Below are positions 448-61,539 of a DNA stretch of 64,000 nt, one piece after another. The DNA comes from Arenicola marina (taxonomy: Eukaryota > Annelida > Polychaeta > Arenicolidae). Below the pieces are notes generated by a model. It saw only the letters and a program-made list of their open reading frames with translations. It made no database searches and had not been told where the DNA came from. The translations under genes were made by a program, and so were the position numbers. The stretch is from the NCBI GenBank assembly GCA_964019135.1, contig OZ025258.1:9319961-9383960 (forward strand), read 5' to 3'. How positions within the stretch are numbered: position 1 is the stretch's first letter; each line of letters opens with the position of its first letter.

Positions 448-2214
448 AGAGCTGTACTCCGTCACGGGTTGAGGCGTGCGCCGTCACTGGTTGAGGTATA
501 CGCCGTCACGCGTTGAGGTGTACGCCGTCAGGGGTGAAGGTGTACGTCCTCAAGGGTCGAGGTGTACGCCGTCAGGGGTTGAGGTCTATGCCGTCAGCAT
601 TAGAGGTGTACGCCGTCACGGGTTGAGGCGTACGCCGTCACTGGTTGAGGTATACGCCGTCACGGGTTGAGGCGTACGCCGTCACTGGTTGAGGTATACG
701 CCGACACGCGTTGAGGTGTACGCCGTCAGGGGTTGAGGTCTATGCCGACAGCATTAGAGGTGTACGCCGTCACGGGTTGAGGCGTACGCCGTCACTGGTT
801 GAGGTATACGCCGTCACGGGTTGAGGCGTACGCCGTCACTGGTTGAGGTATACGCCGACACGCGTTGAGGTGTACGCCGTCAGGGGTTGAGGTCTATGCC
901 GTCAGCATTAGAGGTGTACGCCGTCACGGGTTGAGGTGTACGCCGTCACGGGTTGAGGTGTACGCCGTCAGGGGATGACGTGTACGCCGTCAGGGGTGGA
1001 GGTGTACGCCGTCACGGGTTGAAGTGTACGCCCTCAGGGGTGGTGTACGCCGTCATGGGTGGAGGTGTACGCCCTTACGGGTGGAGGTGTACGCCCTCAG
1101 GGGTGGAGGTGCACGCCGTCATGGGTGGAGGTGTACGCCCTTACGGGTGGAGGTGTACGCCCTCAGGGGTGGAGGCGTACGCCGTCCGGGCTTGAGGTGT
1201 ACGCCGTCACAGGCTAAGGTGTACGCCGTCAGGGGTGGAGGTGTACGCCCTCAGGGGTGGAGGTGTACGCGGTCGGGGGTGGAGGTGTACGCCCTCAGGG
1301 GTGGAAGTTTACGCCCTCATAGGTGGAGGTGTACGCCATCGGGTGTGGAGGTGTACGCCCCCAGGGGTGGAGGTGTACGCACTCAGGGGTGGAGGTGTAC
1401 GCCCTCATGGGTTGAGCTGTAGCTCGTCAGGGGTGGAGGTATACGCCGTCATGGATTGAGGTGTACGCCGTCAGGGGCTAAGATGTACGCAATCAGGGGT
1501 GGAGGTGTACGCCCTCAGGGGTGGAGGTGTACGCGGTCAGGGGTGGAGGTGTACGCCCTCAGTGGTGGAGGTGTACGCGGTCAGGGGTGGAGGTGTACGC
1601 CCTCAGGGGTGGAGGTGTACGCTCTCAGGGGTAGAGGTGTACGCCCTCATGGGTTGAGCTGTACGTCGTCGGGGTGGAGGTGTACGCCGTCAGGGGCTAA
1701 GGTGTACGCAATCAGGGGTGGAGGTGTACGTCGTCAGGGGTGGAGGTGTACGGCGTCAGGGGTGGAGGCGTACGCCGTCAGGGGTTGAGGTTACGTCCTC
1801 AGGGGTGGAGGTGTACGTCGTCAGGGGTGAAGGTGTACGGCGTCAGGGGTGGAGGCGTACGCCGTCAGGGGTGGAGGTGTACGCCCTCAGGGGTGGAGGT
1901 GTACGCCCTCAGGGGTGGAGGTGTACGCCCTCAGGGGTGGTGGTGTACGTCGTTAGGGGTGGAGGTGTACGCCGTCAGGGGTGGAGGTGTACGCCGTCAG
2001 GGATGGAGGTGTACGCCGTCACGGATGGAGGTTACGCCACACGGGTTGAGGTGTACGCCCTCAGGAGTCGAGGTGTACGCCGTCAGGGGTCGAGGTGTAC
2101 GCCCTCAGGGGTGGAGGTGTACGCCCTCAGGGCTGGAGGGGTACGCCGTCAGGGGTGAAGGTGTACGCCCTCAGGGGTGAAGGTGTACACCCTCAGGGGT
2201 GGAATGGTACGCCC
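448..2214. repeat. 22-bp minisatellite overlapping the HPS4 stop codon
   Basis: About 80 tandem copies of a 22-bp unit, gaggtgtacgccctcaggggtg on the plus strand with many single-base variants. On the minus strand the unit reads ggcgtacacctccacccctgag, nearly the same as the last codons of HPS4 (ggc gta cca ttc cac ccc tga). The array therefore begins inside the coding sequence, and each unit repeats the stop-codon context. Copies nearest HPS4 are the most alike; those near 450-950 are more diverged and follow a gttgaggcgtacgccgtcac pattern. Short open frames on the plus strand (GVRPQGWRCTPSG type) are translations of the repeat and not genes. Confidence 0.9.
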
Positions 2215-2367
2215 TGCTGGCGGAGGAGACGTTGGCACTCCTTGGCGTCCAGACACATCGTGGTGTCCCGTGTGGAGGGTACGCCGACGGGGGGTCTGGC
2301 GGTCCTGGGCTGCAGGAAGACCTCCTCGCTCTGGGCGCGGTGGCCAAACACACACGTCGTGTAGTTC
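2193..2367 (-). CDS. HPS4: HPS4 coding exon 12 (stop codon)
   Basis: 175 bp, acceptor ttggcgacag, ending at TGA (2193-2195). Encodes NYTTCVFGHRAQSEEVFLQ, then a short variable piece, DTTMCLDAKECQRLLRQQGV and PFHP; human ends AKQKLLKHGVNLL. The last seven codons are also the first unit of the 22-bp minisatellite. Confidence 0.9.
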
Positions 2368-5300
2368 CTGTCGCCAAACAACACGTGAATGAACATCAGA
2401 GGCCGTATTCGTAATCCCCTCGTAAGTTACGCACGAAATGTGCATTTTCGTCTTAGCTCACCAGCTACCTCACCAGCTTGTTGTGATGGTACTCATGATT
2501 AAGAAATCGTTTTCAATATAATTTTAGCACTTTTTTAATTTGGAAGATCGATTTCTTGGGTGGCGATTATGATACGGTCCCAAACACATTGATAACACGT
2601 ATGCCATAAAAAAGCATTTTACAGTGACAAATATTTGTCAAACAGAACGTTAAGACCAGTTCAAGAACATATATCATTATCCAGCTAGGATATCCAAATG
2701 TTACATTAAGTTGATGTGAGGTAATTATTAGGGAAAGTACTTCTGATGAGAGATAATGCACGATGCTGACTAAATACGCATGGATGGTGGCGCCACCTGA
2801 GAGTCATGTCCGACAGCGAAGGTTCCTTCCGGAAGTCGTGGTGCATCATGACAGAAGTCCCGCAGAAATCAAGTTCCTGGTGACTCATTGGCTGAAGCAT
2901 TCCTTTAACCATGGAAATCTTGCCTGAAAGGGATGGCAATGGCATAATCAGGAAAGTTCTGCGTGGAAAAATGGAAGGTGGCAGGGTGTGAAAGTTTTTT
3001 CGGACAAGGAAGATTACAAGGACAATAAAGATACAACAACGTTACTATAATGTTATAGAGCCAACGGGAATATCCCTCAATATACCTCCAAACCGAATAA
3101 GAATGACACAAGTTTATATGTAGTTATGTGTTAAAAGTTACTTTTCTGTAATTTTGACTACTTGGGGCGTTTGAACAAGGTTTACCTGACAATGTCTGCG
3201 TGAAGCTGTTGTAGGTCAGGTAGTTGTAATCACTACCGGAGTCCTGGTGGAAGAAATAACAGACACACAATTACTGATAGAAAAAAAAACAGTTACACAG
3301 AAGCAGTTACACAGAATCAAATCTGTTAATAAGACAATCTTAACGTTTTAAGGGGCATATAAATCTAATCTCCATAGCAAGGAGAGTGGACTTCCGGTCA
3401 GACAGTGGCGGATCCAGGGGGGGGGGGGCCATCTTTTTACGTAAAAGGCCAATTTCGTCCATTTTCAGCGGCATTGAGACGCTAAAATGACGCGTGCACC
3501 CCCTTTTCAGACTTGTGCTTCTCATTTGGCCAAGTCCTGGATCCGCGAGTCCGCGTCACGTGACGGGCGTGGCGTACCTGCGTCCTGTTGTCCAGGTCGG
3601 CGTGCTGTCTGAGGTAGACCTCCAGCTCTGCCAGTTGAGGCAACATCTGGGCCCACTGCATCGAACAACACGGGCATACCAATCAGTAGCATACATCAGA
3701 ATACAAATGTTTAGCTAGAAGAAACGCTGCAACCGATGTTAAGAAACACAATGGTGACGTCATATAACGTGCGATAACTTATTATAACGCGACGTATAAT
3801 ATATTGTTCTCCGAGTGCATTTAGCGTCACATACCGTGTCATAACGTCACATACCGTGTCATAACGTCACATATCGTCATAACGTCACATATCGTGTCAT
3901 AACGTCACATACCGTGTCATGACGTCACATACTGTCATAACATCACATATCGTCTCATAGCGTCACATACCGTGTCATAACGTCACATATCGTGTCATAA
4001 CGTCACATATCGTGTCATAACGTCAAATATCGTGTCATAACGTCACACACCGTGTCATAACGTCACATATCGTGTCATAACGTCACATATCGTGTCATAA
4101 CGTCACATACCGTGTCATAACGTCACATATCGTGTCATAACGTCACATATCGTGTCATAACGTCACATACCGTGTCATAACGTCACATATCGTGTCATAA
4201 CGTCACATATCGTCTCATAGCTTCACATACTGTGTCATAACGTCACATATCGTGTCATAACGTCACATATCGTGTCATAACGTCACATACCGTGTCATAA
4301 CGTCACATACCGTGTCATAACGTCACATACCGTGTCATAACGTCACATATCGTGTCATAACGTCACATATCGTGTCATAACGTCACATATCGTGTCATAA
4401 CGTCACATATCGTGTCATAACGTCACATACCGTGTCATAACGTCACATATCGTGTCATTACGACACACGATGAATGTGTGGCATGAGTTACGATACCTAT
4501 TAAGTGATTTTAAAGTTTTCCGTAATAAAATACGGTAAATATCTCGGTTCTGTAAAGTATTGTCAGTTTTGACGTTTTTATCGTGGTCATAAAGTAAATT
4601 TACAGTAAAATTACGTTGCTGTCGTAGTCTCAGTTTCAAATTCTCAACGAGGTCAGATTCCCGCGACCTCTCTAAAAACATTCGCAGCTCAGAAATGTTA
4701 AAATGTGGATGTTTCCGGCAATTTTTGTGCAAAAATAGACTAAATGGGGCCAAGTGACCTCCCGGAGGGTGGCAGCTCAGAAGGATTCCGCCAAAATGGC
4801 TCTAAAATGATATTTATAATATAAATAATATAATATAAAGACTGGGCTACCCCCGGAGGCATTACCTCACGTGACTCACCAAGGCGTTGAGCTTTTCCCT
4901 TCTGGAGAGCGTTCCTTCCTCCATCAGGAGCAGCAGGACCGTGTCCGAGTTACCCTGGATATAGAGCTCCAGCTGCTGCAGGTCGCGGACGTCCGGCTCC
5001 AGACTGAGTTCCAACAGCGTCTCCCTGTCCCCGGGACTGTCGAGCAGATCCGGATCATCGGGATTCATAGTCAGCTTTTCCCAGGGACTCTCCGTTCGTT
5101 CCTCGTTGAAGCCACCATCGAGGGTTTCCGGTTCCTTTGAATCCGGATCGACGGATATCGGAAGTAGACTACCCGGACGTCTTCCCGGATACCCGGGGCT
5201 GCGTTCGCGTGCACTGGGGTGTACATCCGGGTCTTCATCCGCCGACGCCAACGCCGACGCCGCTGATATCCTGTGATACTCCTCTATACTGATATCCTCG

Positions 5301-8300
5301 AAGGTGAAATGCGTCCTGTCACACTCTCCCGTCTTATTCAACGCTACCTCACCCACCTCACCTGGATCAGGCGGCGCCGACGCAGCGTCAAGGTCAAGGT
5401 CACGGGCGATATGTGACGTACGGCTGGGAGACGCTTCCTGGGAAGCCGGACGTGCGTGGTCTACGCAGTCTGCCGTTACTCGGTCCCTCTCTTGGGCTGC
5501 AGGGTCCGGTGAACGCCTGTCCTCAGGGTCTGGTGAACGCGTGTCTGCAGGGTCTGGTGAATGCGTGTCCGCAGGGTCTGGTGAACGCGTGTCCGCAGGG
5601 TCTAGTGAACGCGTGTCCGCAGGGTCTAGTGAACGCGTGTCCGCAGGGTCTGATGAACGCGTGTCCGCAGGGTCTAGTGAACGCGTGTCCGCAGGGTCTA
5701 GTGAACGCGTGTCCGCAGGGTCTGGTGAACGCGTGTCCGCAGGGTCTGATGAACGCGTGTCCGCAGGGTCTAGTGAAGGCGTCTCGGCGTGGCCTGTCAG
5801 TGGACTACCATCAGGGACACAACCGTCCAGTGCATCACTGACCACATCGTCAGTCGACGAGCATCGTTCAGTTGCTGTTTGAGAATCAGTTACGCCTGTC
5901 ACAGAACATTCAGCGCTACCTGGCGTTCGAGTGTGGACGAGATTGATAGGATCACAGTTAGCGCCACCAGACTTGTCTACTACTTGGGGTGAATTAACAT
6001 CAACAGAAGCACCAGGACCAGGATGTAGCTCTGTCGACGACCACGTGGCCGGAGTGGGACTGGGAACACCCCCCGGGTCGTTCAAGCCTGTCACACGGTC
6101 TTCACCATCGGCCGACGGCAGACTGGACTTACCATGATCAACGGTCAGCGATAGAGCATTGTCAACCCCCCGGGACACTACAGCGCCATGAGAACCAGCA
6201 CCCTGGGGACCCCCAGCGCGGGGCCCCCCAGCGCGGGTGGGACCCCCTCCCTGGGCGTCATCCTCGCTGTCATCCGGACCCGAGGTGGCGGCGTCCATCT
6301 GGCGCGCCAAGTCCTCCAGAATGTCCTTGTTTTGGGCGGCGATTCGCTTCACGTTCCGGAACAGGGATTTGACGCCCATGGCGGCGCTGTCCATCGGCAG
6401 CAGGAAGGTCGCCTGCGGGGTGGTCCGGCTGGGGGACACCCCCCCGACGGCGGAGTCCAGAGGCGACGGCGAGAACACCGGGTCGTCGTCGAACAGGGCG
6501 AAGGGACCCGCGTCCCTATCGCTCTGTGGTGACGTAACGCCGGATCGGTCACGTGGTTCATTTTCATTTGGCGACGGAAACACGTCTGTTGGGTTATCAC
6601 GAGATTCCGGAATGCTAGCGTCGGGGGAATTCAGTGGTGTGGATTCTCTGATAGCCAATGACGTTATATCCGGTGATAAAATGTCCTCTCTGGCGTCGAC
6701 CGGGTCATTGTCCACCACATCCTCAAACACATCGCCATCGGAATCCTCGCCATTCACGTCCACCCGTTCACGTATTCCACTGGTGCCGGTGGTGTCTGCA
6801 GGATGGGACTGTTGACGTCTGTCACACATGGCACCCCTGTCTTCAGAGTCCGCACGCTGGGCAGCCGCACCGACAGATTCCATGTGGGCATCATTCCCTT
6901 GTGACATCACGGGTTCAGGATTCCCTTGTGACGTCAAGGGTGCATCATTCCCTTGTGACGTCAAGGGTGCATCATTCCCTTGTGACACCAAGGGTGCGTG
7001 TTTGTCTAGCGACACCAAGGGAGGGTCATTCTTTTGTGACAACAAGGGAGCACCATTCCCTTGTGACACCAGTGGAGCACCATTCCCTTGTGACGCCAAG
7101 GGTGCATCATTCCCTTGTGACACCAGTGGAGCACCATTCCCTTGGGACACCAGTGGAGCACCATTCCCTTGTGACGCCAAGGGTGCATCATTCCCTTGTG
7201 ACACCAGTGGAGCACCATTCCCTTGTGACACCAGTGGAGCACCATTCCCTTGTGACGCCAAGGGTGCATCATTCCCTTGTGACACCAGTGGAGCACCATT
7301 CCCTTGTGACACCAGTGGAGCACCATTCCCTTGTGACGCCAAGGGTGCATCATTCCCTTGGGACACCAGTGGAGCACCATTCCCTTGGGACACCAGTGGA
7401 GCACCATTCTCTTGTGACGTCAATGGATTCCATTGTGACGTCAAGGGAGCATCCTTCCCTTGAGACACCAAGGGAACATCATTCCCCGGGGACACACGAC
7501 CGAAGCAGACGATATTTGACGCCGTCATCTCCAGACTAGTTTGCCTTGCCAGTGTCACCTTCACACCGATGTTCTCCTTCAGTGTGTCACACCCAGCGTT
7601 CGTTTCCTCAGAATCCTTGTCCGTAGAACGCTTCTTCCGTCTAGGAGACTTAGGTTTAGTCTTAGCGGACGTAAATCCCGGCTCAGATCCAATACGCTGC
7701 TGCCTAGATCCCGAACCCTGATTACCCAGGGGCCTCGTCTCTCCTTGTGCTTGCTCTTTGAATTGCACCGACTGACTCCTGGTCGAACCACCATCCTCCC
7801 CGATTATCGCTCTCCTCTTACTGGGACTTTTACTGGGGCTGAGCGCCGAGCCGCCCCGGGGCTTACGACCGGAAGTCGTGACGTCATAGGTCGTCTGCTT
7901 CCGGCGCGTCTCGCTGACGTGGCGTTCGAAGGGCTTCCGGCTCCAGCGCGCGTTGTTGACCATGGGAGCGGAGAAGCCGGTGACCCGGTCAGCCTCGCCA
8001 AGCTCCGTCCACTCCTCGGGCGTCAGAAACACTCTCAGGATTCTCACGCCGGAGGGCGCTTCGAACTCTGCAACACATACGAGTACTTGTCATTGTCTTC
8101 AGCGCGGGTCATGTATCATTGCCACGTCACATGATACTGTCTCACAATTGTCTACGTTAATTAATATTGCGGCGACCTTAACATCCCGAAAGATCATTTT
8201 GTATTACTTTCACCGCACGACGGTAGGCAAACTGTGTCAACTTCTGGCATGGTGATGGCACGAAAATGCCAATAATTTCACTTCAATGACTACCATGAAA

Positions 8301-11300
8301 TACTAATAAAGAGACTTACCTAATTTTACTGGCAAACCAGGGAACTGAAATGAAGGTCAACAAAATATTAGAAACCATAGATGGCGACCAGCATTGTAAT
8401 ACAAACCAACCATAAGAGACCTAGGAGAGGTCCGAAGAACATTTAGACATTCATTTTAATATGTGTTTAATCAAAATAGAATGTTTCAATTCGGTGCGTT
8501 AACCACGGGCTCCACATTTTGACAATAATGTCACGATGTTTAACCAGATATGTAACAAATACCCCGCCACCAGAAGCAAAACTAAGTAAAGTACAAATAT
8601 CCAGAAGCCTCACGTGAGCTTGTTTCGGTCGCAGAATCAGCATTCTGGCGGTCACGTTGGGATGGAATTGAGAGTACAGCACCCTAAACAGAGAGACATA
8701 TTATATCAAAGATTGACTTATGACAGCGAAAACATCTAAAGTTTTCAACGCAACGGTATAATAAAGACCGATTACACAGGGAGAGTCAGACCTGTTCTTG
8801 TAGAGGAGGCAGCCCGTGTGAACCCTTACTACAGATTACACAGGGAGAGTCAGACCTGTTCTTGTAGAGGAGGCAGCCCGTGTGAACCCTTACTACAGAT
8901 TACACAGGGAGAGTCAGACCTGTTCTTGTAGAGGAGACAGCCCGTGTGAACCCTTACTACAGATTACACAGGGAGAGTCAGACCTGTTCTTGTATAGGAG
9001 ACAGCCCGTGTGAACCCTTACTACAGATTACACGGGGAGTCAGACCTGTTCTTGTAGAGGAGGCAGCCCGTGTGAACCCTTACTACAGATTACACAGGGA
9101 GAGTCAGACCTGTTCTTGTATAGGAGACAGCCCGTGTGAACCCTTACTACAGATTACACAGGGAGAGTCAGACCTGTTCTTGTAGAGGAGACAGCCCGTG
9201 TGAACCCTTACTACAGATTACACAGGGAGAGTCAGACCTGTTCTTGTATAGGAGACAGCCCGTGTGAACCCTTACTACAGATTACACAGGGAGAGTCAGA
9301 CCTGTTCTTGTAGAGGAGACAGCCCGTGTGAACCCTTACTACAGATTACACAGGGAGAGTCAGACCTGTTCTTGTAGAGGAGGCAGCCCGTGTGAACCCT
9401 TACTACAGATTACACAGGGAGAGTCAGACCTGTTCTTGTAGAGGAGACAGCCCGTGTGAACCCTTACTACAGATTACACAGGCAGAGTCAGACCTGTTCT
9501 TGCACAGGAGGCAGCCCGTGTGAACCCTTACTACAGATTACACGGGGAGTCAGACCTGTTCTTGTAGAGGAGACAGCCCGTGTGAACCCTTACTACAGAT
9601 TACACGGGGAGTCAGACCTGTTCTTGTAGAGGAGACAGCCCGTGTGAACCCTTACTACAGATTACACAGGGAGAGTCAGACCTGTTCTTGTATAGGAGAC
9701 AGCCCGTGTGAACCCTTACTACAGATTACACAGGGAGAGTCAGACCTGTTCTTGTAGAGGAGACAGCCCGTGTGAACCCTTACTACAGATTACACAGGGA
9801 GAGTCAGACCTGTTCTTGTAGAGGAGGCAGCCCGTGTGAACCCTTACTACAGATTACACAGGGAGAGTCAGACCTGTTCTTGTAGAGGAGACAGCCCGTG
9901 TGAACCCTTACTACAGATTACACAGGGAGAGTCAGACCTGTTTTTGTAGAGGAGGCAGCCCGTGTGAACCCCTGGTGTTCGCTGGGATTGCTGCAGGATG
10001 TGCGAGGCCCGCAGAAAGGACGCTGAACCCGCCTGTAAGGTCAAACAAAGGTCACACTAAATAGACTAAATAGACAACTTTCCTTTTATATCATATTGCC
10101 GAGATGGAAAGCAGATATCATTTGTTATTCGTCCATACAAGTAAAACGTATTATATCCTTAGATCACTTGTGTAGATACTTCATATTAGCGGGAGAGAGT
10201 ACCAGAGAAACAGAGACAACAAATCTTGACAGTTGGCATGCGCCATTCTGAAGATCAAGGCCTCGTTACTTGTGACATCACCGCGGTAAGGGAGTCTTTA
10301 TTTTCTCATCGTAATATTGTTACATCACTTATATAACTTGAAACCAATTGTAAAACCAAAACACCTGGATCCAATCGAAAGCTTCAAGATCACAGAGATA
10401 AGTCACGTGTACTGCATGATCTCTCAGAGTTTCGGGGCCGAACTGTACACGCAGCATTATTATATCACTCATGGGCGTACCAACCACTGCTTCCCACGTA
10501 CGTGTGGTTTGTACTCGTACTCGACTCATTTAACGACAAGTACTCACGTCTGGTAAGTCCACTGATGGCAAAGACTCAAAGGCCGCAGCAACGCTGTCGC
10601 CATAGCGACGGATGAAGGGCAGATAGCAATCCCAAATATCTTGCATCACATCCGCGAAGGCCTTACCAGATGCCTCGGCGGTCTGAGTAAATAAACCTGT
10701 ATGCCATTAGGATACATGTTGCATGTATGTTAATTGCTAGAATTGGTTCTCCTGTTTTTACTCTTAATGCCAAAATTAGCATGGAAAATAGTTAGTATCA
10801 GGTATACGGTACAGGTATCTTATTTGTTGGCTAAATATTTGAGCAATCATTTCGTACAAATCATTTACGTGTACCAAATAGATTCTATCAAATATAAATA
10901 AAACTACCTGTTCTTCACTCGATGCCACAAATTGAATATAATGCAATCAATTAGACTTCTTTGGAAGCAAAATATTTTGGATACGGTGAAAGCGAGGCAG
11001 CAACCTGTTCGACATGACGCATGCTTCCTTGGTAGAGGGTGAACAGTCTGTGGAGGTAGTCTAGCTGTCCAGTCACCACCTCGTCTGGTTCCTCGCGGTT
11101 ACCACCCAGAGCCTGATACACAAATACACCATTGTAGACACAGTCCAGAGCCTGACACACAAATACACCATTGTAGACACTGCCCACAGCCTGATACACA
11201 AATACACCATTGTAGACATTGCCCAGAGCCTGATACACAAATACACCATTGTAGACACTGCCCACAGCCTGATACACAAATACACCATTGTAGACAGTGC

Positions 11301-14300
11301 CCACAGCCTGATACACAAATACACCATTGTAGACATTGCCCAGAGCCTGATACACAAATACACCATTGTAGACACTGCCCACAGCCTGATACACAAATAC
11401 ACCATTGTAAACACTGCCCACAGCCTGATACACAAATACACCATTGTAGACACTGCCCACAGCCTGATACACAAATACACCATTGTAAACACTGCCCGGA
11501 GCCTGATAGACAAATAAACGATTGTAAACACTGCCCACAGCCTCATACACAAATAGACCATTGTAGATACAACAAATAGCTCGGATGTATTCCGCAACCT
11601 TTGGCCTTAATCAGGGATAACCTTTGTTTATTTCCTTTGTTTACCTTGTGAACCACTATTTGCTTGTATTGTTACGTTATTCATTCAGAAAAATAAATGA
11701 GACTTTGACTTTTACTTGACTACAGCCACTGCGCAGAGGCTGATACTCAGACACAGACAAGTACACCACAATAAGATGCACTATTATGAGTCAGAGCCCC
11801 TGACATGATAAACTAAACCACAATTTTCATGGAACTATTTTAACAGTCCACTTACCAAAGTATATTTGCCTAAGTGCTTGATGGCCATTTTGTTTTTCTG
11901 CAGGATAAAGATGGCTGGCGGAGAAGCGATGAAAGAGGTGAAGAACTCCACCATGCCCATCAGCTGCCCACAAATGGCACATTGATCATCAACAGACATC
12001 TGCAACAGACCGCAAAAATGACTACAGTGGTCCCTTCATTATGCAACATTTTGGCAATGCACCGAACACATGTTAAAGGCCCTGTATTCTGTGCCTCCCT
12101 GACTGACACAACTTACAAGGTTTGAGGTTTGGGCCAGTCCTATGACAAGCATTTGTAATTCCTACTTTCCATATTCAATGTCAGTGTTGCTGGTATCTTG
12201 TGCGGCAGTCCAGCCACATCTGATCGGCGGGAGGCAACCAACACCTTGAATTGTGTAATCTAACTGGACTTCATTGTGTACCTCATTGCTGGCACAATGG
12301 ATGTCATATACTGGTAATGCAGAGATACAATAATATACTAGAGGTAACTTCTGTGCACAAATGGGTTTGCCTGACCAAGTTGCCTCTGGGGATAGATAGG
12401 GGATAAGGTGAAAGAGAAACGAATTACGGGTAAGGCCACGCTGAGTGAATACATTTCTTATACAGCTGCTGATAATTAATATGTCAAATAGCATTTTTCC
12501 AGAACACTGACTGTATACAGTATCCAGTAATGGATGAATCCTTAATTAAGTAAGGGCTATCTGAAAATATATGAAGGATAAATTGTAAAATATCTTAAAC
12601 TTAAAAATATAATTACCGTCATTTACGTATGTTTTGGAACACCCGAAAAATAATTACAAACCCGGGTGTTCCAAAACATACAGTCAAAAAAATAAATTCA
12701 TTTGGAGCTGTTCCAAAACTTTGATACTTTTCTTTTTGGGTGGGGCGGTGGGAGGGTGGTAAAGGGTAGGGGGCTTGCACGGTCAGTCAGCCTAAACTTC
12801 CGTAGCCGTAGCCACCACAGGATGCGTGTAAGGGGCAGGGTGGGGTAAGGTCAGCACACAGTATTTGACTTCCTTGCTTCCTCTCAAACAAAGCCTGGCA
12901 CGAGTGTAAAGGGATCGGTCGAGAAGGAGGGGGAGGGGGGAGGTGTCACAAACTTAGCCTCTTCGTCACCGCAGGCACTTGGCGAGCTGAGAGGAACGGC
13001 CCTCCTCTGACGACGGGGGTGGGGTGGGCAGTGGTTGGAATGGGGATTACTGTCAGTCAACCAGCTCTGATGGAGAGAAGAGAAGCAGAGAAATGTGCGT
13101 CACATGGCTAGGCAGGGTGGAGGGTTGGCGCAAGTGCCCCCAGGCAAGCCCGCTTCTCTAGGGGCACAACGGTAACAATGTTAAAATCCTTCGACGTTAG
13201 TAGGGAATCGACTGTAGCTTTTATTATAATGCGGGCGCGTACAATAATAGTGCTTACGTATTCTATATATTTTGTTCTATCTTCTGACATCAAGAAAGTG
13301 TGTCAACACTAGATTGTTCCAGTCATATTTTCGCGAACAAATGTTGGAGCATGCGACTTTTCCCTACCAACCGCCATGTGTATGCAGCGCCACCTGGCGA
13401 ATCCCACCACCATTTGAACCATATGTAGCCTGGGTCCCAAACTTTGTAACAGTCAATGACCTGTGAAAGAGGGCGCTGCTGTTGTCCTTAAGTTCAAAGT
13501 GAGCGACTGACAAGGCCCTCTAGCGGAGAGTCATATGCTAACGGAGAGGAGGAACCAACTCGCATTCACAGGTACCGGCATCCGCCAAAAACAAATATGG
13601 GGGATGGCTGGTCGGGAACAGTTGTGTGCTCCAACATTTCTTCGCGAAAATATAATCGAAACAACCTAGTGTCGACACACTTTTTTGATGTCAGATGATA
13701 GAACAAGGTATATAGAATACGTAAACACTATGATTGTTTGAGGACACATTATAATAAAAGCTACAGTCGATTCCCTACTAACGTCGAAGGATTTTAACAT
13801 TGTTACCGTTGTGCCCCTAGAGAAGCGGGCTAGCCTGGGGACACTTGCGCCAAGGTGGAGGGTGGTGCACACAGAGCAGTCAGGCAGCGCAGAAATAAAA
13901 CAATGTATGCGAGTCGGGGAGAGTGGGGTGGAAGGGGGTGCAGGGAGAGGCGGTCAGTCAGGCAGTGCAGACATATATACAATGAACGCGAGGATACCAC
14001 CGCGAGTTTTGACTGACATTTGATATGCCCCGAAACGAACACAACTCCTTTACAACATAACCCATTTGAGTAGCTTGAGTGATATTGGATGGGCGGTAAG
14101 CGTGGGAACTGATGCCTGAAAGTTGGGAGGGTGCTGGATCGGAGGTTGATACTCCCCTATTGCCCTATTGAGACCGATTTCAATGTTATATGTCTTATAT
14201 CTTCATGGCCGCGACCTAAATAAATAGATCTATTTCCGGAAAACTAGGGTGTACTAAAACATTGATACAAAAAAATTACCCACCATCTGTGGTGTACTAA

Positions 14301-16586: not shown

Positions 16587-16923
16587 GTTTGTTTTGGTTC
16601 TGTCTGACCCATTTTCATAAAAGCTGAAAATAACCGTCATGCACCGACTTTACTGGACAGTGGTGATAGCGAGCGTAAGCGAGCTCTTTAGGTAACATGC
16701 ATGCATATTCAAAGTCCATTTCAAGCATAGGCTTAGGACTTTCATTTTGCGTAACAACCCCCATGAGACGTTTTCGGATTCGGAGTAAATATCAGCTGTG
16801 CATAAATATTTTCAAGCAAAGAGAGGTCGAAGCGAAGAGGTTATAAGCGACGGGCTAAATGTCTGTTGCCAAGCAGAGCGCTCTTGGTGACCGCCCATCG
16901 GCTGCTGTCATATTGAGTAGTTA

Positions 16924-16953
16924 TGACGTCAAAATGTTATAAACATGACGTCA
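16924..16953. promoter_or_regulatory. Pair of CRE octamers upstream of HPS4
   Basis: Two perfect palindromic TGACGTCA octamers at 16924-16931 and 16946-16953, 22 bp apart centre to centre, about 340 bp upstream of the proposed HPS4 start codon. TGACGTCA is the consensus CREB/ATF site. That they regulate HPS4 is inference from position. Confidence 0.4.
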
Positions 16954-18275: not shown

Positions 18276-18446
18276 CGACACAACCGGCATTGCGGCTCAG
18301 GACGACGCACAGCTAGTTGTCCCGACTGAGAATGCCCAGTGTGCATATTGGCTAGATGCTTCCGGCCCGCGGTCGCTTTCCGGTACCATGCAATAGTCCC
18401 CCATGGGACAGATGTAATGGGTGACAAGGCTCATATGCTTAGCTCT

Positions 18447-19711: not shown

Positions 19712-19882
19712 TATTTCAATACATATGTTCCTTATTATATGTACGAAATGAATCGTTCGGTCCGGTTTAGATAATACAACAACAACCACAGCTTGGTGTT
19801 ACATCCGGGCTCCTTTTATTATAATTGTTTGGAATACACTAGGCGTATAAAATTGAGGAGGTCAATATGAAATATTGAGACA
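19712..19882 (-). repeat. 3' LTR of the gypsy element
   Basis: 171 bp, about 98% identical to the other LTR and bordered outside by AAGTG. A purine-rich tract lies just inside it. Confidence 0.9.
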
Positions 19883-22800: not shown

Positions 22801-24119
22801 TCTGGAATTCTAGGGAGTACTTCTTTTTGTTCTTTGGATTCTTTACTGAGACTCGGGTCTTCCCTGAGACAGACCGCGTGGTTTTGTTCCACATCTGTAG
22901 CGTGACGTCAGAGGGTTCCAAGCTGGTTCTGTCAACGTACTTTGCAGGAAGCACATTAACTGTGGCGCCGTCATCTATCTGAAACTTCACGGAGTTTCCA
23001 TGTAGCAGCATGTGAGCATACAGCGGACCTTTAGTACGCTTGTCGTTTTGCACTGTGGAGACCTGCTGTACGGACAGTACATATTCCTCACTGCTCAAGT
23101 CAGAGTTTGATGGATCACCATCAACCCCATGTATCAGCTTACGTCCAGCCTGGAAGCAGCAGACAGCGAAATGGTTTCTCTTTTTGCACTTGGCACACGA
23201 TTTACCCCAGGCCGGGCAAAACTCTTTTTTTCGTGTGTAGCTGAGACCACAGAACTTGCACTGTATGGTCGGCGCTTCACGTGGGTAACGGTAGTGTTCT
23301 TGCTTCCTTGGGAAGTGACCTTGGTTGGCTCTGTCACCTGACTTTGGCTTCGCTGTGTGAGTAACCTTGTGTACCGCTTCTGTTCCTGTATCACCCATTG
23401 TCAACACCTGAGTCGATGCAGCTTCAGCTGATCGGCAAATATCCACAGCATTTTTGAATGTCAGGCGCCTCCTTTGTAACAGCAATTTCCTTGTTGTCGC
23501 ATCTCTTATGCCTGTCACGATATGGTCTCTCATCAGTGAATCGCTCAGGCAATCACAAAAATTTTATGATTTGGACATATGTTGCAGCACAGAAAGATAA
23601 GCATCAAAAGACTCATCTGGTTTTTGCTCTCGTTTGTTAAAAACGTATCTTTCATATGTCTCGTTCACTTCCCCTTGTATAACTGTGTCCAGTTTTTGAA
23701 TGATCAGCTGCACATCATCTTTGTCTTCAGTGGCAGTGAAAGTCAGTGCGTTGTAGAGCTTTAGCCCAACAGGACCCATGGCATTGAGGAATACTGCCAG
23801 TTTGTATGACTTTTCATGCTTGTCCAGTTCTGTTATTATACCGTAGTTGTGATACAACTGCTTGAACATACTCCATTCCTCTTTCGCATCCTCTTTTAGT
23901 TTCAATTGCGGTGGAGGGTTACCGTGCAGTGGTTTTGCAGCCATGTTCAGTTGTGGAGTTTTGGCGAGCAGTGTAGTTCTTTGTTCTGGCCTTAGCGTGG
24001 CTTGAGCGCGACTTGCTCTCGGCACTTGTTCTCAGAGTTCATATGTGTTCACCACATTATACATTAACCAGAAACAGTTCATACCTTGACCTCCATCATC
24101 CATCCCACCGCTGTCACCA

Positions 24120-24290
24120 TGTTTCAATACATATGTTCCTTAGTATATGTACGAAATGAATCGTTCGGTCCGGTTTAGATAATACAACAACAACCACAGC
24201 TTGGTGTTACATCCGGGCTCCTTTTATTATAATTGCTTGGAATACACTAGGCGTATAAAATTGAGGAGGTCAATATGAAATATTGAGACA
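24120..24290 (-). repeat. 5' LTR of the gypsy element
   Basis: 171 bp with TG...CA ends, followed in element orientation by the primer-binding site at 24104-24119 and bordered outside by AAGTG. Confidence 0.9.
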
Positions 24291-24295
24291 AAGTG

Positions 24296-40000: not shown

Positions 40001-43000
40001 TGGGGGAGAGGACTTACTGACCTGGGGGAGAGGGAATGCTGTCACTGGAGGAGAAGGATTACTGTCCCTGGGGCAGAGGGAATGCTGTCACTGGGGGAGA
40101 AGGGTTACTGTCCCTGGGGGAGAGGGAATGCTGTCACTGGGGGAGAGGGAATACTGTCCCTAGGGGAGAGGACTTACTGACCTGGGAGAGAGGGAATGCT
40201 GTCACTGGAGGAGAAGGATTACTGTCCCTGGGGGAGAGGGATGGTTGTCACTGGAGGAGAAGGATTACTGTCCCTGGGGGAGAGGGATGGTTGTCACTGG
40301 AGGAGAAGGATTACTGTCCCTGCGGGAGAGGAATGGCTGTCACTGGAGGAGAAGGATTACTGTCCCTGGGGGAGAGGGAATGGTGTCACTGGGGGAGAAG
40401 GATTACTGTCCCTGGAGGAGAGGGAATGCTGTCACTGGGGGAGAGGGCAAACTTTCCTGAGGGAGAGGGAATACTGTCCCTGGGGGAGAGGACTTACTGA
40501 CTTGGGGGAGAGGGAATGCTGTCACTGGAGGAGAAGGATTACCGTCCCTGGGGGACAGGGATGGTTGTCACTGGAGGAGAAGGATTACTGTCCCTGGGGG
40601 AGAGGGAAGGTTGTCACTGGAGGAGAAGGATTACTGTTCCTGGGGGAGAGGGAATGCTGTCACTGGGGGAGAAGGATTACTGTCCCTGGAGGAGAGGGAA
40701 TGCTGTCACTGGGGGAGAGGGCAAACTTTCCTGAGGGAGAGGGAATACTGTCCCTGGGGGAGAGGACTTACTGACCTGGGGGAGAGGGAATGCTGTCACT
40801 GGAGGAGAAGGATTACTGTCCCTGAGGAAGAGGGAATGCTGTCACTGGGGGAGAAGGATTACTTTCCCTGGGGGAGAGGGATGGTTGTCACTGGAGGAGA
40901 AGGATTACTGTCCCTGGGAGAGAGGGAAGGTTGTCACTGGAGGAGAAGGATTACTGTCCTTGGGGGAGAGGGAACGTTGTCACTGGAGGAGAAGGATTAC
41001 TGTCCCTGGGGGAGAGGGAATGCTGTCACTGGGGGAGAGGGCAAACTTTCCTGAGGGAGAGGGAATACTGTCCCTGGGGGAGAGGACTTACTGACCTGGG
41101 GGAGAGGGAATGCTGTCACTGGAGGAGAAGGATTACTGTCCCTGAGGGAGAGGGAATGCTGTCACTGGGGGAGAAGGATTACTTTCCCTGGGGGAGAGGG
41201 ATGGTTGTCACTGGAGGAGAAGGATTACTGTCCCTGGGAGAGAGGGAAGGTTGTCACAGGAGGAGAAGGATTACTGTCCTTGGGGGAGAGGGAATGCTGT
41301 CACTGGGGGAGAAGGATTACTGTCCCTGGAGGAGAGGGAATGCTGTCACTGGGGGAGAGGGCAAACTTTCCTGAGGGAGAGGGAATACTGTCCCTGGGGG
41401 AGAGGACTTACTGACCTGGGGGAGAGGGAATGCTGTCACTGGAGGAGAAGGATTACTGTCCCTGAGGGAGAGGGAATGCTGTCACTGGGGGAGAAGGATT
41501 ACTGTGCCTGGGGGAGAGGGAATTTTGTCACTGGGGGAGAGAGAATGCTGTCACTGGGGGAGAGGACTTACTGACCTGGGGGAGAGGGAATGCTGTCACT
41601 GGAGGAGAAGGATTACTGTCCCTGGGGGAGAGGAAATGCTGTCACTGGGGGAGAAGGATTACTGTGCCTGGGGGAGAGGGAATGCTGTCACTGGGGGAGA
41701 GAGAATGCTGTCACTGGGGGTGGGAGAATGCTGTCACTGGGGGAGAAGGATTACTGTCCCTGGGGGAGAGGACTTACTGACCTGGGGGAGAGGGAATGCT
41801 GTCACTGGAGGAGAAGGATTACTATCCCTGGGATAGAGGGAAGGTTGTCACTGGAGGAGAAGGATTACTGTCCTTGGGGGAGAGGGAATGCTGTCACTGG
41901 GGGAGAGAGAATGCTGTCCATGGGGCAGAGGAAAGGTTGTCACTGGAGGAGAAGGATTACTGTCCCTGGGGGAGTGGGAATACTGTCACTGGGGGAGAAG
42001 GAATGCTGTCACTGGAGGAGAAGGATTACTGTCCGTGGGGGAGAGGGAATGCTGTCACTGGGGGAGAAGGATTACTGTCCCTGGGGGAGAGGGAATGCTG
42101 TCACTGGGGGAGAGAGAATGCTGTCCCTGGGGGAGAGAGAATGCTGTCACTGGAGGAGAAGGGTTACTGTCCCTGGGGAAGAGGACTTACTGACCTGGGG
42201 GAGAGGGAATGCTGTCACTGGAGGAGAAGGATTACTGTCCCTGGGGGAGAGGGAAGGTTGTCACTGGAGGAGCAGGATTACTGTCCCTGGGGGAGAGGGA
42301 ATGCTGTCACTGGGGGAGAGAGAATGCTGTCACTGGGGGAGAGGGCAAACTTTCCCGAGGGAGAGGGATTACTGTTCCTGGGGGAGAGGACTTACTGACC
42401 TTGGGGAGAGGGAATGCTGTCACTGGAGGAGAAGGATTACTGTCCCTGGGGGAGAGGGAATGCTGTCACTGGGGGAGAAGGATTACTGTCCCTGGGGGAG
42501 AGGGAATGCTGTCACTGGGGCAGAGAGAATGCTGTCACTGGGGGAGAGAGTGCTGTCACTGGGGGAGAAGGGTTACTGTCCCTGGGGGAGAGGGATTACT
42601 GTCCCTGGGGGAGAGGACTTACTGACCTGGGGGAGAGGGAATGCTGTCACTGGGGGAGAAGGATTACTGTCCCTGGGGGAGAGGGAAGGTTGTCACTGGA
42701 GGAGAAGGATTACTGTGCCTGGGGGAGAAGGATTACTGTCCCTGGAGGAGAGGGAATGCTGTCACTGGGGGAGAGGGCAAACTTTCCTGAGGGAGAGGGA
42801 ATACTGTCCCTGGGGGAGAGGACTTACTGACCTGGGGGAGAGGGAATGCTGTCACTGGAGGAGAAGGATTACTGTCCCTGGGGGGAGAAGGAAGGTTGTC
42901 ACTGGAGGAGAAGGATTACTGTCCCTGGGGGAGAGGGAATGCTGTCACTGGGGGAGAAGGACTACTGTCCCTGGGGGAGAGGGAATGCTGTCACTGGGGG

Positions 43001-43210
43001 AGAGAGAGTGCTGTCCCTAGGGGAGTGGGCATGCGGTCACTGGGGGAGAAGGGTTACTGTCCCTGGGGGAGAGGGTCTACTCTCCTGGGGGAGAGGGAAT
43101 GCTCTCACTGGGGGAGAGCGCATACTGTCCTGGGGGAGAGGAAATACTGGCCCTGGGTGAGAGGAAATGCTGTCACTGGGGGAGAGGGCATATCGTCCCT
43201 GGGTGAGAGG
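31061..43210. repeat. Giant minisatellite, 23-bp section
   Basis: About 12 kb of 23-bp units: ggattactgtccctggggga(gag), ggatggttgtcactggagga(gaa), ggaatgctgtcactggggga(gag) and a rarer ggcaaactttcctgaggga(gag). They are related to the 22-bp units but carry one extra base. Patches of the 22-bp types return at 32.1-32.6 and 36.6-37.15 kb. A block of about 4.2 kb (about 32.26-36.48 kb) is repeated at about 36.80-41.02 kb, offset 4541 bp, changing to 4543 after a 2-bp difference near 33.89 kb. The plus strand is very G-rich with runs GGGGGAGAGGG. Confidence 0.92.
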
Positions 43211-43212
43211 GG

Positions 43213-43213
<1 letters not shown>

Positions 43214-43253
<40 letters not shown>

Positions 43254-43319
43254 TATATATATATGTATATATATATATGTATATATATATATGTATATAT
43301 ATATATGTATATATATATG
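43214..43319. repeat. (AT)n microsatellite
   Basis: About 105 bp of alternating AT interrupted by periodic GTAC/GTAT steps (atatatatatatgtatatat). It marks the right edge of the giant minisatellite. Confidence 0.95.
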
Positions 43320-44825: not shown

Positions 44826-44923
44826 ATGACCATTCCCGCAATGCAGCCGGAGGAAGACTTGCCGGACTCCTCTCTGGCCAAGGAATTCTACGCCAAGTAT
44901 GAGGTCAAGGACATCTTAGGAAA
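44826..44923 (+). CDS. PHKG: PHKG coding exon 1
   Basis: 98 bp from ATG to donor gtaagt, phase 2 out, 32 residues plus two bases (MTIPAMQPEEDLPDSSLAKE, then FYAKYEVKDILGK). A second in-frame Met at residue 6 could also start the protein. cttcctgcccag directly before the ATG looks like an acceptor, suggesting a spliced 5' leader. Confidence 0.9.
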
Positions 44924-47900
44924 GTAAGTCCCAAGAACGAACGAGTTGTCTGACGCACGAATAACGTTAAGTAACGTCGGTATATAGTTGGGAGGTCACT
45001 CCGTGGCCTGGTAGATAGCGCATTTGCCTACTTACTGTCGAGTGTGCTCTGCTAGGCCAGCCCAAGTGGCCAGTGCGTGGTTCGAGCCCCACATATGCCA
45101 TTGTTCCAGGTCTTTCTTCGCAAAGATTACGGGGTTACTCCCGGAGACATGGCTACTGGCTTACTCGACCTTCCGAATTGTCGCGATGTGATCTACGACG
45201 ATTAATGCATCCTATGTAAAAAACAAACCAACCAACGGTAGGCCTAAACAGTTGTAGCGCCATAGTGTTTCTCACATTGGTGTCAGTGGCACTGTATTGA
45301 TCATGGCGTGCACTGTTTATCACTCTGGGGTGTCAGCAGCACTGTATTGATCATGGCGTGCGCTGTTTATCACTCTGGGGTGTCAGCAGCACTGTATTGA
45401 TCATGGCGTGCACTGTTTATCACTCTGGGGTGTCAGCAGCACAGTATTGATCATGGCGTGCACTGTTTATCACTCTGGGGTGTCAGAAGCACTGTATTGA
45501 TCATGGCGTGCACTGTTTATCACTCTGGGGTGTCAGCAGCACAGTATTGATCATGGCGTGCACTGTTTATCACACAGGGGCGTCAGCAGCATTGTATTGA
45601 TCATGGCGTGCACTGTTTATCACTCTGGGGTGTCAGCAGCACTGTATTGATCATGGCCTGCACTGTTTATCACACAGGGGTGTCAGCAGCACTGTATTGA
45701 TCATGGCGTGCACTGTTTATCACACAGGGGTGTCAGCAGCACTGTATTGATCATGGCATGCACTGTTTATCACTCTGGGGTGTCAGCAGCACTGTATTGA
45801 TCATGGCGTGCACTGTTTATCACTCTGGGGTGTCAGAAGCACTGTATTGATCTTGGCGCGCACTGTTTATCACTCTGGGGTGTCAGCAGCACTGTATTGA
45901 TCGTGGCGTGCACTGTGTATCACTCTGGGGTGTCAGCAGCACTGTATTGATCATGGCGTGCACTGTTTATCACTCTGGGGTGTCAGCAGCACTGTATTGA
46001 TCATGGCGTGCACTGTTTATCACTCTGGGGTGTCAGCAGCACTGTATTGATCATGGCGTGCACTGTTTATCACTCTGGGGTGTCAGCAGCACTGTATTGA
46101 TCATGGCGTGCACTGTTTATCACTATGGGGTGTCAGCAGCACTGTGTTGATCATGGCGTGCACTGTTTATCACTCTGGGGTGTCAGCAGCACTGTATTGA
46201 TCATGGCGTGCACTGTTTATCACTCTGGGGTGTCAGCAGCACTGTATTGATCGTGGCGTGCACTGTTTATCACTCTGGGGTGTCAGAAGCACTGTATTGA
46301 TCATGGCGTGCACTGTTTATCACTCTGGGGTGTCAGCAGCACTGTATTGATCATGGCGTGCACTGTTTATCACATAGGGGCGTCAGCAGCATTGTATTGA
46401 TCATGGCGTGCACTGTTTATCACTCTGGGGTGTCAGCAGCACTATTGATCATGGCGTGCAGTGTTTATTACATAGAGGTGTCAGCAGCACTGTATTGATC
46501 ATGGCGTGCACTGTTTATCACTCTGGGGTGTCAGCAGCACTGTATTGATCATGGCGTGCACTGTTTATCACTGGGGTGTCAGAAGCACTGTATTGATCAT
46601 GGCGCGCACTGTTTATCACTCTGGGGTGTCAGCAGCACTGTATTGATCGTGGCGTGCACTGTTTATCACGTAGGGGTGTCAGCAGCACTGTATTGATCAT
46701 GGCGTGCACTGTTTATCACTCTGGGGTGTCAGCAGCACAGTATTGATCATGGCGTGCACTGTTTATCACACAGGGGCGTCAGCAGCATTGTATTGATCAT
46801 GGCGTGCACTGTTTATCACTCTGGGGTGTCAGCAGCACTGTATTGATCATGGCCTGCACTGTTTATCACACAGGGGTGTCAGCAGCACTGTATTGATCAT
46901 GGCGTGCACTGTTTATCACACAGGGGTGTCAGCAGCACTGTATTGATCATGGCGTGCACTGTTTATCACTCTGGGGTGTCAGCAGCACTGTATTGATCAT
47001 GGCGTGCACTGTTTATCACTCTGGGGTGTCAGAAGCACTGTATTGATCATGGCGCGCACTGTTTATCACTCTGGGGTGTCAGCAGCACTGTATTGATCGT
47101 GGCGTGCACTGTGTATCACTCTGGGGTGTCAGCAGCACTGTATTGATCATGGCGTGCACTGTTTATCACTCTGGGGTGTCAGCAGCACTGTATTGATCAT
47201 GGCGTGCACTGTTTATCACTCTGGGGTGTCAGCAGCACTGTATTGATCATGGCGTGCACTGTTTATCACTCTGGGGTGTCAGCAGCACTGTATTGATCAT
47301 GGCGTGCACTGTTTATCACTATGGGGTGTCAGCAGCACTGTGTTGATCATGGCGTGCACTGTTTATCACTCTGGGGTGTCAGCAGCACTGTATTGATCAT
47401 GGCGTGCACTGTTTATCACTCTGGGGTGTCAGCAGCACTGTATTGATCGTGGCGTGCACTGTTTATCACTCTGGGGTGTCAGAAGCACTGTATTGATCAT
47501 GGCGTGCACTGTTTATCACTCTGGGGTGTCAGCAGCACTGTATTGATCATGGCGTGCACTGTTTATCACATAGGGGCGTCAGCAGCATTGTATTGATCAT
47601 GGCGTGCACTGTTTATCACTCTGGGGTGTCAGCAGCACTATTGATCATGGCGTGCACTGTTTATTACATAGAGGTGTCAGCAGCACTGTATTGATCATGG
47701 CGTGCACTGTTTATCACTCTGGGGTGTCAGCAGCACTGTATTGATCATGGCGTGCACTGTTTATCACTGGGGTGTCAGAAGCACTGTATTGATCATGGCG
47801 CGCACTGTTTATCACTCTGGGGTGTCAGCAGCACTGTATTGATCGTGGCGTGCACTGTTTATCACGTAGGGGTGTCAGCAGCAATGTATTGATCATGGCG

Positions 47901-50900
47901 TGCACTGTTTATCACACAGGGGTGTCAGCAGCACTGTGTTGATCATGGCGTGCACTGTTTATCACTCTGGGGTGTCAGCAGCACTGTGTTGATCATGGCG
48001 TGCACTGTTTATCACTCTGGGGTGTCAGCAGCACTGTATTGATCATGGCGTGCACTGTTTATCACTCTGGGGTGTCAGCAGCACTGTATTGATCATGGCG
48101 TGCACTGTTTATCACTCTGGGGTGTCAGAAGCACTGTATTGATCATGGCGTGCACTGTTTATCACTCTGGGGTGTCAGCAGCACTGTATTGATCGTGGCG
48201 TGCACTGTTTATCACATAGGGGCGTCAGCAGCATTGTATTGATCATGGCGTGCACTGTTTATCACTCTGGGGTGTCAGCAGCACTATTGATCATGGCGTG
48301 CACTGTTTATTACATAGAGGTGTCAGCAGCACTGTATTGATCATGGCGTGCACTGTGTATCACATAGGGGCGTCAGCAGCATTGTATTGATCATGGCGTG
48401 CACTGTTTATCACACAGGGGTGTCAGCAGCACTGTTTTGATCATGGCGTGCACTGTTTATCACTCTGGGGTGTCAGCAGCACTATTGATCATGGCGTGCA
48501 CTGTTTATCACTCTGGGGTGTCAGCAGCACTGTATTGATCATGGCGTGCACTGTTTATCACACAGGGGTGTCAGCAGCACTGTATTGATCATGGCGTGCA
48601 CTGTTTATCACACAGGGGTGTCAGCAGCACTGTATTGATCATGGCGTGCACTGTGTATCAAATAGGGGCGTCAGCAGCATTGTATTGATCATGGCGTGCA
48701 CTGTTTATCACTCTGGGGTGTCAGCAGCACTATTGATCATGGCGTGCACTGTTTATCACTCTGGGGTGTCAGCAGCACTGTATTGATCATGGCGTGCACT
48801 GTTTATCACTCTGGGGTGTCAGAAGCACTGTATTGATCATGGCGTGCACTGTTTATCACTCTGGGGTGTCAGCAGCACTATTGATCATGGCGTGCACTGT
48901 TTATCACACAGGGGTGTCAGCAGCACTGTATTGATCATGGCGTGCGCTGTTTATCACTCTGGGGTGTCAGCAGCACTGTATTGATCATGGCGTACACTGT
49001 TTATCACTCTGGGGTGTCAGCAGCACTGTATTGATCATGCCGTGCACTGTTTATCACACAGGGGCGTCAGCAGCATTGTATTGATCATGGCGTGCACTGT
49101 TTATCACACAGGGGTTTCAGCAGCACTGTGTTGATCATGGCGTGCACTGTTTATCACTCTGGGGTGTCAGCAGCACTGTATTGATCATGGCGTGCACTGT
49201 TTATCACGTAGGGGTGTCAGCAGCACTGTATTGATCATGGGGTGCACTTTTTATCACTCTGGGGTGTCAGCAGCACTGTATTGATCATGGCGTGCACTGT
49301 TTATCACACAGGGGTGTCAGCAGCACTGTATTGATCATGGCGTGCACTGTTTATCACACAGGGGCGTCAGCAGCACTGTATTGATCATGGCGTGCACTGT
49401 TTATCACACAGGGGTGTCAGCAGCACTGTATTGATCATGGCGTGCACTGTTTATCACTCTGGGGTGTCAGCAGCACTGTATTGATCATGGCGTGCACTGT
49501 TTATCACTCTGGGGTGTCAGCAGCACTATTGATCATGGCGTGCACTGTTTATCACTCTGGGGTGTCAGCAGCACTGTATTGATCATGGCGTGCACTGTTT
49601 ATCACACAGGGGTGTCAGCAGCACTGTATTGATCATGGCGTGCACTGTTTATCACTCTGGGGTGTCAGCAGCACTGTATTGATCATGGCGTGCACTGTTT
49701 ATCACTCTGGGGTGTCAGCAGCACTGTATTGATCATGGCGTGCACTGTTTATCACTCTGGGGTGTCAGCAGCACTGTATTGATCATGGCGTGCACTGTTT
49801 ATCACACAGGGGCGTCAGCAGCAGTGTATTGATCATGGCGTGCACTGTTTATCACACAGGGGTGTCAGCAGCACTGTACGCCGGTGCGTACAGAAGGAGT
49901 CGGGCGTGGAGTACGCCGTGAAGATCATTGATCTGACAGGTGACAAGGACAATGAGTTTCAAACCGAGGAGTTTCGCCTCTCCACCAAGAAGGAAATCAA
50001 CATTCTGCGAATGTGCGCACAACACCCACATATCAGTGAGTACCACCCAAGCACTTGTATACTGAGTTTGCGTTTGTGGTGTCTGCGTTACAGGTTTACG
50101 CGTTTGTCAATACGTGTGGGCTGTTTGTGTTATGAGTTGTTAAAGTCTTCTCCTTTAAAATTGAACTGTTATCATCAAGCTAATACTGTTCTCATCAAGC
50201 TAATGCTGTTCTCATCAAGTTAATACTGTTATCATCAAGCTAATACTGTTATCATCAAGCTAATAGTGTTCGCATCAAGCTAATGCTGTTCTCATCAAGT
50301 TAATACTGTTATCATCAAGCTAATACTGTTATCATCAAGCTAATAGTGTTCGCATCAAGCTAATACTGTTCTCATCAAGCTAATGCTGTTCTCATCAAGT
50401 TAATACTGTTCTCATCAAGTTAATACTGTTATCATCAAGCTAATACTGTTCTCATCAAGCTAATGCTGTTTTCATCAAGCAAATACTGTTCTCATCAATT
50501 TAATACTGTTATCAGCAAGCTAATACTGTTCTCATGAAGCTAATACTGTTATCATCACGCTAATACTGTTATCATCAAACCTAATACTGTTCTTAACGAG
50601 CTAAAACTGTTCTCATCAAATCTAATACTGTTCTTATCAAGCTAAAACTGTTATCATCAAACCTAATACTGTTCTTATCAAACTTGAACTGCTTTCATCA
50701 AGCGAATATTGTTATCATCAAACTTGAAATGTTCTCATCAAGCTAATACTGTTCTCATCAAGCTAATACTGTTCTCATCAAGCTATTACTGTTCTCATCC
50801 AGCTAATACTGTTCTCATCAAGCTAATACTGTTCTCATCCAGCTAATACTGTTCTCATCTAACTTGAAATGATCTCATAACGTTAATACTGTTATCATCA

Positions 50901-56612: not shown

Positions 56613-56664
56613 GATGATTACGAACACTTGGCAATTTAATATGTCGCTTCCGGTCCGATTTGGC

Positions 56665-61536: not shown

Positions 61537-61539
61537 GTA

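Follow-up and report, generated by a model that had tools for sequence, protein, structure and literature searches.

Why should four minisatellites, unlike one another in sequence, each lie across the end of a coding segment in two genes of a polychaete worm? The question is raised by a stretch of 64,000 nucleotides of Arenicola marina (assembly GCA_964019135.1, contig OZ025258.1, positions 9,319,961 to 9,383,960 of the forward strand; hereafter the window), which holds models of HPS4 on the minus strand and of the phosphorylase kinase gamma gene, PHKG, on the plus strand. The answer that we regard as probable, if well short of secure, is that these are minisatellites of the type called "mirages" in amphioxus, and that tandem duplication is frequent everywhere in this DNA and is tolerated where it spans an edge.

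Tandem Repeats Finder (TRF) returned 27 rows for the window, which were merged by hand to 20 arrays, with an AT microsatellite set aside; together the 20 arrays occupy 36,244 of the 64,000 bases. Four of them have units of 22, 64, 39 and 50 bp. An earlier note on this DNA had placed these four at exon edges and described them as unrelated in sequence, and both statements hold: TRF finds all four, and their units are unrelated beyond chance, since 5 of 6 unit pairs score at shuffled level (0.06-0.91 of 200 shuffles score at least as high) and the sixth, PHKG with the 64-bp unit, stands at 0.02, which is not notable among six pairs. The note's view that every array overlaps an exon boundary applies to three splice edges, namely the donor of HPS4 exon 6 and the acceptors of HPS4 exon 4 and PHKG exon 2. 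The fourth array lies on the HPS4 stop codon, which is an end of coding sequence and no exon boundary, the exon presumably continuing as 3' untranslated region (UTR). Taken from the TRF array ends, the overlap into coding sequence is 34 bp at the exon 6 donor, 8 bp at the exon 4 acceptor, 19 bp at the PHKG acceptor and 11 bp at the stop codon (about 21 bp if a diverged coding copy, GVPFHP-stop, is counted by eye), so that the short overlaps of about 8 to 33 bases noted before become 8 to 34 bp. According to the gene models and TRF, the junction or stop codon sits in the outermost copy of each of the four arrays. Its offset within the unit varies, the exon share being about 8 of 39, 19 of 50, 34 of 64, and half to nearly all of 22 bases; because of this variation, precise anchoring at the junction is unsupported.

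The copies, counted by wraparound alignment of each array, reproduce the signals of the edge to differing extents. The exon 6 donor reads AACAG/GTCTGA (slashes mark junctions), and CAG/GTCTGA is retained in all 19 copies of the 64-bp array, whose median copy identity to the consensus is 0.98. The exon 4 acceptor reads TATCAG/GCTCTGGG, with AG retained in 12 of the 12 copies that cover the site, and the PHKG exon 2 acceptor reads ACACAG/GGGTGTCAG, with AG in 30 of the 92 copies and TG in 62. In the 22-bp array, 80 copies cover the site of the stop codon, and 68 of these have TGA there. As for the PHKG array, 58 of the 62 TG units read ACTCTG where the used acceptor reads ACACAG, and a single TG variant has taken over most of the array. 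We do not claim selection against surplus acceptors here, as homogenization could spread one variant copy. The last PHKG unit has TTGAT, which resembles a branch point, about 27 bases ahead of the AG, with no AG between.

Frame and protein homology suggest that splicing uses the outermost copy. Use of an inner site would lead to an early stop for all 18 inner exon 6 donors and all 29 inner AG acceptors of PHKG, so that those copies are presumably intronic, and in the frame check only the first of the 19 exon 6 donors leaves the protein intact. With the outermost sites, the models align without gaps over all three array-bearing splice junctions to solved structures: in a sequence comparison with such structures, the HPS4 model matches HPS4 of BLOC-3 (PDB 8zwc_B, E 1e-28) and the PHKG model matches phosphorylase kinase gamma (PDB 2y7j, E 7e-33; 8jfk was also aligned). 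HPS4 of Lingula and Lineus agrees by eye at both HPS4 splice junctions, and that of Capitella at exon 3-4, its record diverging directly after KN at exon 6-7. Exon 4 behaves differently in the frame check, since use of any of the 11 inner acceptors would keep the frame to the normal stop and add 13 residues per copy; the first longin domain would thereby gain between 1 and 11 units of a 13-residue repeat (AVGSVYNGVFVYQ-like). The three arrays within HPS4 exon 8 have units that are all divisible by 3 (24, 15 and 27 bp), in contrast to the 22, 64, 39 and 50 bp of the edge arrays: at an edge, copies are not bound to the reading frame. The length of exon 8 is 3.2 kb, and its three coding minisatellites lengthen the middle part of the protein.

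The direction of growth can be read from what the units encode. The 50- and 64-bp units hold residues conserved as far as vertebrates, GVSS in PHKG and GC-LYK in HPS4, and this conservation makes the exon the source and the intronic copies derived, indicating that at least these two arrays grew outward from the exon edge. The opposite course, an array invading the exon from the intron, is rejected for both, since the shared part encodes vertebrate-conserved residues. By analogy, the 39-bp array, with its 8 coding bases, and the stop array, at a poorly conserved protein end, likely grew outward as well.

Is the overlap with edges more than chance would give? Since arrays inflate the window, each was collapsed to one unit, leaving 28.4-28.6 kb, and random units were scored as spanning a coding edge if at least 3 bases lay on each side of it, the edges numbering 28: 26 at splice sites, a start and a stop. 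Against this null, 4 of all 20 arrays span a coding edge where 0.50 are expected (P 0.0013), and 4 of the 14 arrays with at least 3 copies do so where 0.38 are expected (P 0.0004); splice edges alone give 3 of 20 (0.47 expected, P 0.010) and 3 of 14 (0.35 expected, P 0.004). Circular shifts of all arrays together yield P 0.0018 for the 20 arrays and 0.0011 for the 14, and shifts within HPS4 alone yield P 0.006 for 3 of 8 arrays and 0.004 for 3 of 6. At the remaining 24 of the 28 edges there is no local duplicate above background, the best 28-base match being 14-17 and the background, from 250 positions, having a median of 16 and a 90th percentile of 18. The assertion that four chance overlaps in one window are unlikely is thus borne out at a nominal P of about 0.001, a post hoc figure for this window. 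Because the test was made after the pattern had been seen, in a single window, and for coding exons only, with non-coding exons outside the count, the edge excess is a lead and not proof.

In the account that we favor, frequent duplication tolerated at edges, short tandem duplications would arise all over array-rich DNA, and one falling across the end of a coding segment would copy the junction and, along with it, a few coding bases. Of the resulting copies, the one adjoining the body of the exon would stay in use, and further copies would land in the intron or 3' UTR, without constraint on length or frame, so that the array could grow, perhaps by slippage, unequal exchange or conversion. Such duplications would do no harm, since the exon-side copy serves and the others only make the intron or 3' UTR longer, and edge-spanning arrays would be seen because new arrays form often throughout this DNA and selection does not remove those at edges. 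Consistent with this, the window is array-rich and the junction offset differs among arrays, as would be predicted for random duplications that chance to cross an edge; the varying offset and the stop-codon case also tell against a mechanism directed at splice sites. The splicing- or transcription-linked process suggested in the earlier note finds no backing here: nothing points to one, the offsets vary (in four cases only), and a stop codon lies outside splicing's action. Several points weigh against tolerance as the account. A null that bars units other than multiples of 3 from exon interiors expects 0.41-0.55 edge-spanning arrays where 4 are seen (P 0.0018 for 20 arrays and 0.0005 for 14; 0.013 and 0.005 for splice edges), so tolerance alone does not predict the number. 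Moreover, the stop array holds only few, poorly conserved last residues, so that its direction of birth is drawn from analogy, and the surplus copies of the 39-bp array could in principle be coding, that array being open in frame. Since more edge-spanning arrays are seen than the null expects, exon edges may genuinely be preferred, and a modest preference, added to tolerance, is possible.

Taken further, such a preference would make exon edges the favored sites of array birth, with R-loops, nucleosome edges, or transcription-tied recombination or repair raising the duplication rate at junctions and transcript ends. We think this unlikely. The excess over the collapsed null is 6- to 11-fold, depending on the edges and arrays chosen, and cases recur among amphioxus genes (passages of PMC3087553 and PMC3902484), but the count comes post hoc from one window, junction offsets vary, a stop codon makes up one of the cases, most arrays (16 of 20) cross no coding edge, and most edges (24 of 28) are free of arrays. 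Of the earlier idea that exon edges seed arrays, what stands is that the 64- and 50-bp arrays appear to have been born at the edge, given the conserved coding sequence in their units; an edge preference is not established. Persistence could take the place of birth if a constrained coding copy, being undeletable, re-seeded or converted its neighbors, so that anchored arrays were lost or decayed less. The high identity between neighboring copies in three edge arrays (0.94-0.98; 0.84 in the stop array) is in line with such a process, but in each of the four arrays the exon-side copy matches the consensus less well than the average copy does (0.92 in PHKG, 0.92 in the 39-bp, 0.97 in the 64-bp and 0.86 in the stop array), which does not suggest a driver of homogenization. 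It is never the lowest, the copies as low or lower, itself included, numbering 11 of 92, 3 of 11, 2 of 19 and 31 of 80, respectively, and these numbers do not establish a weaker homogenization at the exon end. With some non-edge arrays also reaching 97% matches in TRF, equal to the best edge array, we judge persistence improbable. Pure chance, in an array- and exon-rich window picked because it was striking, would draw on the post hoc choice and on nominal P values of only about 0.0004-0.013; the same class has been reported repeatedly in another phylum (passages of PMC3087553 and PMC3902484), hence is a recurring structure, and chance appears very improbable.

The amphioxus report of exon-boundary minisatellites at an Adh gene, which the earlier note mentioned, is real, as cited in PMC3087553 and PMC3902484. 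As described in passages of PMC3087553 and PMC3902484, mirages are tandem arrays over 5' or 3' exon-intron boundaries in Adh3 and in the globin genes BflGb6 and BflGb9, in which many but not all copies keep AG or GT, and the Adh3 units measure 10-72 bp; PGBD5 was added as a mirage gene and troponin C named (passages of PMC3902484). Reverse transcription PCR suggested regular splicing, and the class was supposed to be possibly general in cephalochordates (passages of PMC3087553). Also counted among the traits of mirages are inner copies that are more homogenized than those at the boundary, and lengths that are unstable among alleles or in somatic tissue. By comparison with these descriptions, the Arenicola arrays are alike in that a unit spans the boundary in three of four (the stop-codon array is not a strict mirage), in that donor and acceptor edges are both affected (one donor, two acceptors), and in that signals persist in many, not all, copies (19 of 19, 12 of 12 and 30 of 92), with units of similar size, 39-64 bp, in the three splice-edge arrays. 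They are unlike in having up to 92 copies, versus 6 and 3 in two BflGb6 haplotypes, in coming from a spiralian, in that one array lies on a stop codon, and in that splicing is here deduced from protein homology.

Two other systems bear comparison. The creation of introns from tandemly duplicated AG/GT segments (Rogers 1989; Gao and Lynch 2009, both cited in PMC3087553) is alike in that tandem copies bear splice signals and unlike in that the Arenicola copies extend an intron, no new intron being shown. Earthworm metallothionein genes have minisatellites within intron 1, with monomers of 178 and 181 bp on average (passages of PMC12783039); these too are annelid genes with large intronic arrays, but no exon-edge overlap is described in those passages. 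A literature search over titles and abstract openings, with most subscription journals outside its coverage, recognized no exon-edge arrays outside amphioxus.

The HPS4 model comprises 11 coding exons in phase to a single stop, 1423 amino acids in all, without the start exon, which was not searched for. Pfam matched the first longin domain of INTU/CCZ1/HPS4 (E 6e-17) and a kinase domain, with a longin-3 domain just under the cut-off. When the plus-strand frames of 56001-64000 were searched for a few kinase motifs, no further downstream exons of PHKG were found. In a phylogenetic tree of 14 HPS4 proteins, built from 13 of 14 matched proteins with a second sea-urchin record left out, Arenicola HPS4 pairs with that of the annelid Capitella with 100/100 support. 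A second tree, from the N-terminal part only, took 10 of the 14 matched proteins, with a human fragment, marked as a long branch, as root; it sets a spiralian group including the window protein (99/97) apart from echinoderms and human and does not resolve the Capitella pairing. Neither tree contained a cephalochordate or hemichordate protein, and there was no Branchiostoma protein among the 13 and 2 HPS4 matches of two length-limited protein searches, the second of which scored the 7,997 candidates sharing most words. On this basis an amphioxus origin of the DNA, to which the amphioxus report had seemed to point, was rejected, and the trees by themselves make an annelid, or at least a spiralian, probable.

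Between HPS4 and PHKG, TRF places an array 18 kb long, which is built of 23-bp units and shows higher-order periods of 66 bp. On the minus strand is a long terminal repeat (LTR) element, which we take from its domains to be of Gypsy type. Its two terminal direct repeats of 169 nt are 99% alike, and its gag-pol frame is broken by two in-frame stops. A protein search with its polymerase, in which 120 out of 4,418 proteins were listed, most of them unnamed, gave no help in placing the species. Of two foldback elements, one (arms of 248 nt, 89% complementary) is within the intron that follows HPS4 exon 2, and the other (arms of 219 nt, 88% complementary) is upstream; by eye, the former seems to sit inside a larger element whose inverted ends are near 12610 and 14400. 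Three further segments resemble, by eye, tRNA-derived short interspersed elements (SINEs), and ARAGORN found no tRNA gene in the window.

Table. Positions of the arrays, modeled exons and other elements, numbered from the first base of the window.
Feature	Positions	Strand	Remarks	Source
22-bp minisatellite, about 80 copies	449-2203	-	begins in last codons and stop of HPS4, extends into presumed 3' UTR	TRF
64-bp minisatellite, 19 copies	8770-9971	-	covers HPS4 exon 6 donor; surplus copies presumably intronic	TRF
39-bp minisatellite, about 12 copies	11105-11567	-	covers HPS4 exon 4 acceptor; open throughout in the exon's frame	TRF
50-bp minisatellite, 92 copies	45279-49878	+	covers PHKG exon 2 acceptor	TRF
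Coding minisatellite, 24-bp unit	5499-5782	-	in HPS4 exon 8	TRF
Coding minisatellite, 27-bp unit	6884-7521	-	in HPS4 exon 8; 81-bp higher order	TRF
HPS4 coding exons	14444-14540, 11856-11999, 11005-11112, 10548-10682, 9938-10032, 8614-8683	-		in-phase model
HPS4 coding exons, continued	4880-8065, 3578-3655, 3186-3243, 2797-2923, 2193-2367	-	exon 8 is 4880-8065	in-phase model
HPS4 exon 4	11005-11112	-	first 8 bases in array	model and 8zwc_B alignment
HPS4 exon 6	9938-10032	-	last 34 bases in array, encoding VHTGCLLYKN(R)	
HPS4 exon 7	8614-8683	-	next exon after 64-bp array	model and 8zwc_B alignment
HPS4 last coding exon (H12)	2193-2367	-	stop TGA at 2193-2195 inside outermost array copy	
PHKG coding exon 1	44826-44923	+		model and PHKG structure alignment
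PHKG coding exon 2	49860-50035	+	first 19 bases in array, encoding GVSSTV; GVSS common to vertebrate PHKG	
PHKG third modeled coding exon	55968-56022	+		gene model
AT microsatellite	43215-43318			TRF
23-bp array	25206-43211			TRF
LTR element	19714-24290	-		
Foldback element	13125-13853			
Foldback element	15573-16177			
SINE-like segments	about 44990-45100, 55630-55790, 56670-56790			by eye

What is new here is that the mirage class probably reaches beyond cephalochordates to a spiralian, whose HPS4 groups with that of the annelid Capitella. A bolder generalization would be that in animals with high minisatellite turnover, spiralians and amphioxus alike, coding-exon edges are preferred birthplaces of arrays, with splice sites routinely multiplied tens of times; we put this forward tentatively and doubt it more than we believe it. 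Collapsing each array to one unit before counting overlaps offers a simple route to a genome-wide test. The 19 copies of one donor in a nearly identical 64-base context provide material for tests of splice choice, and if the edge preference is true, such genes would let nature itself test how the spliceosome picks out the outermost among many near-identical sites. Should arrays of this kind prove common outside cephalochordates, duplication at exon edges would be a general way for introns to grow and possibly to be gained.

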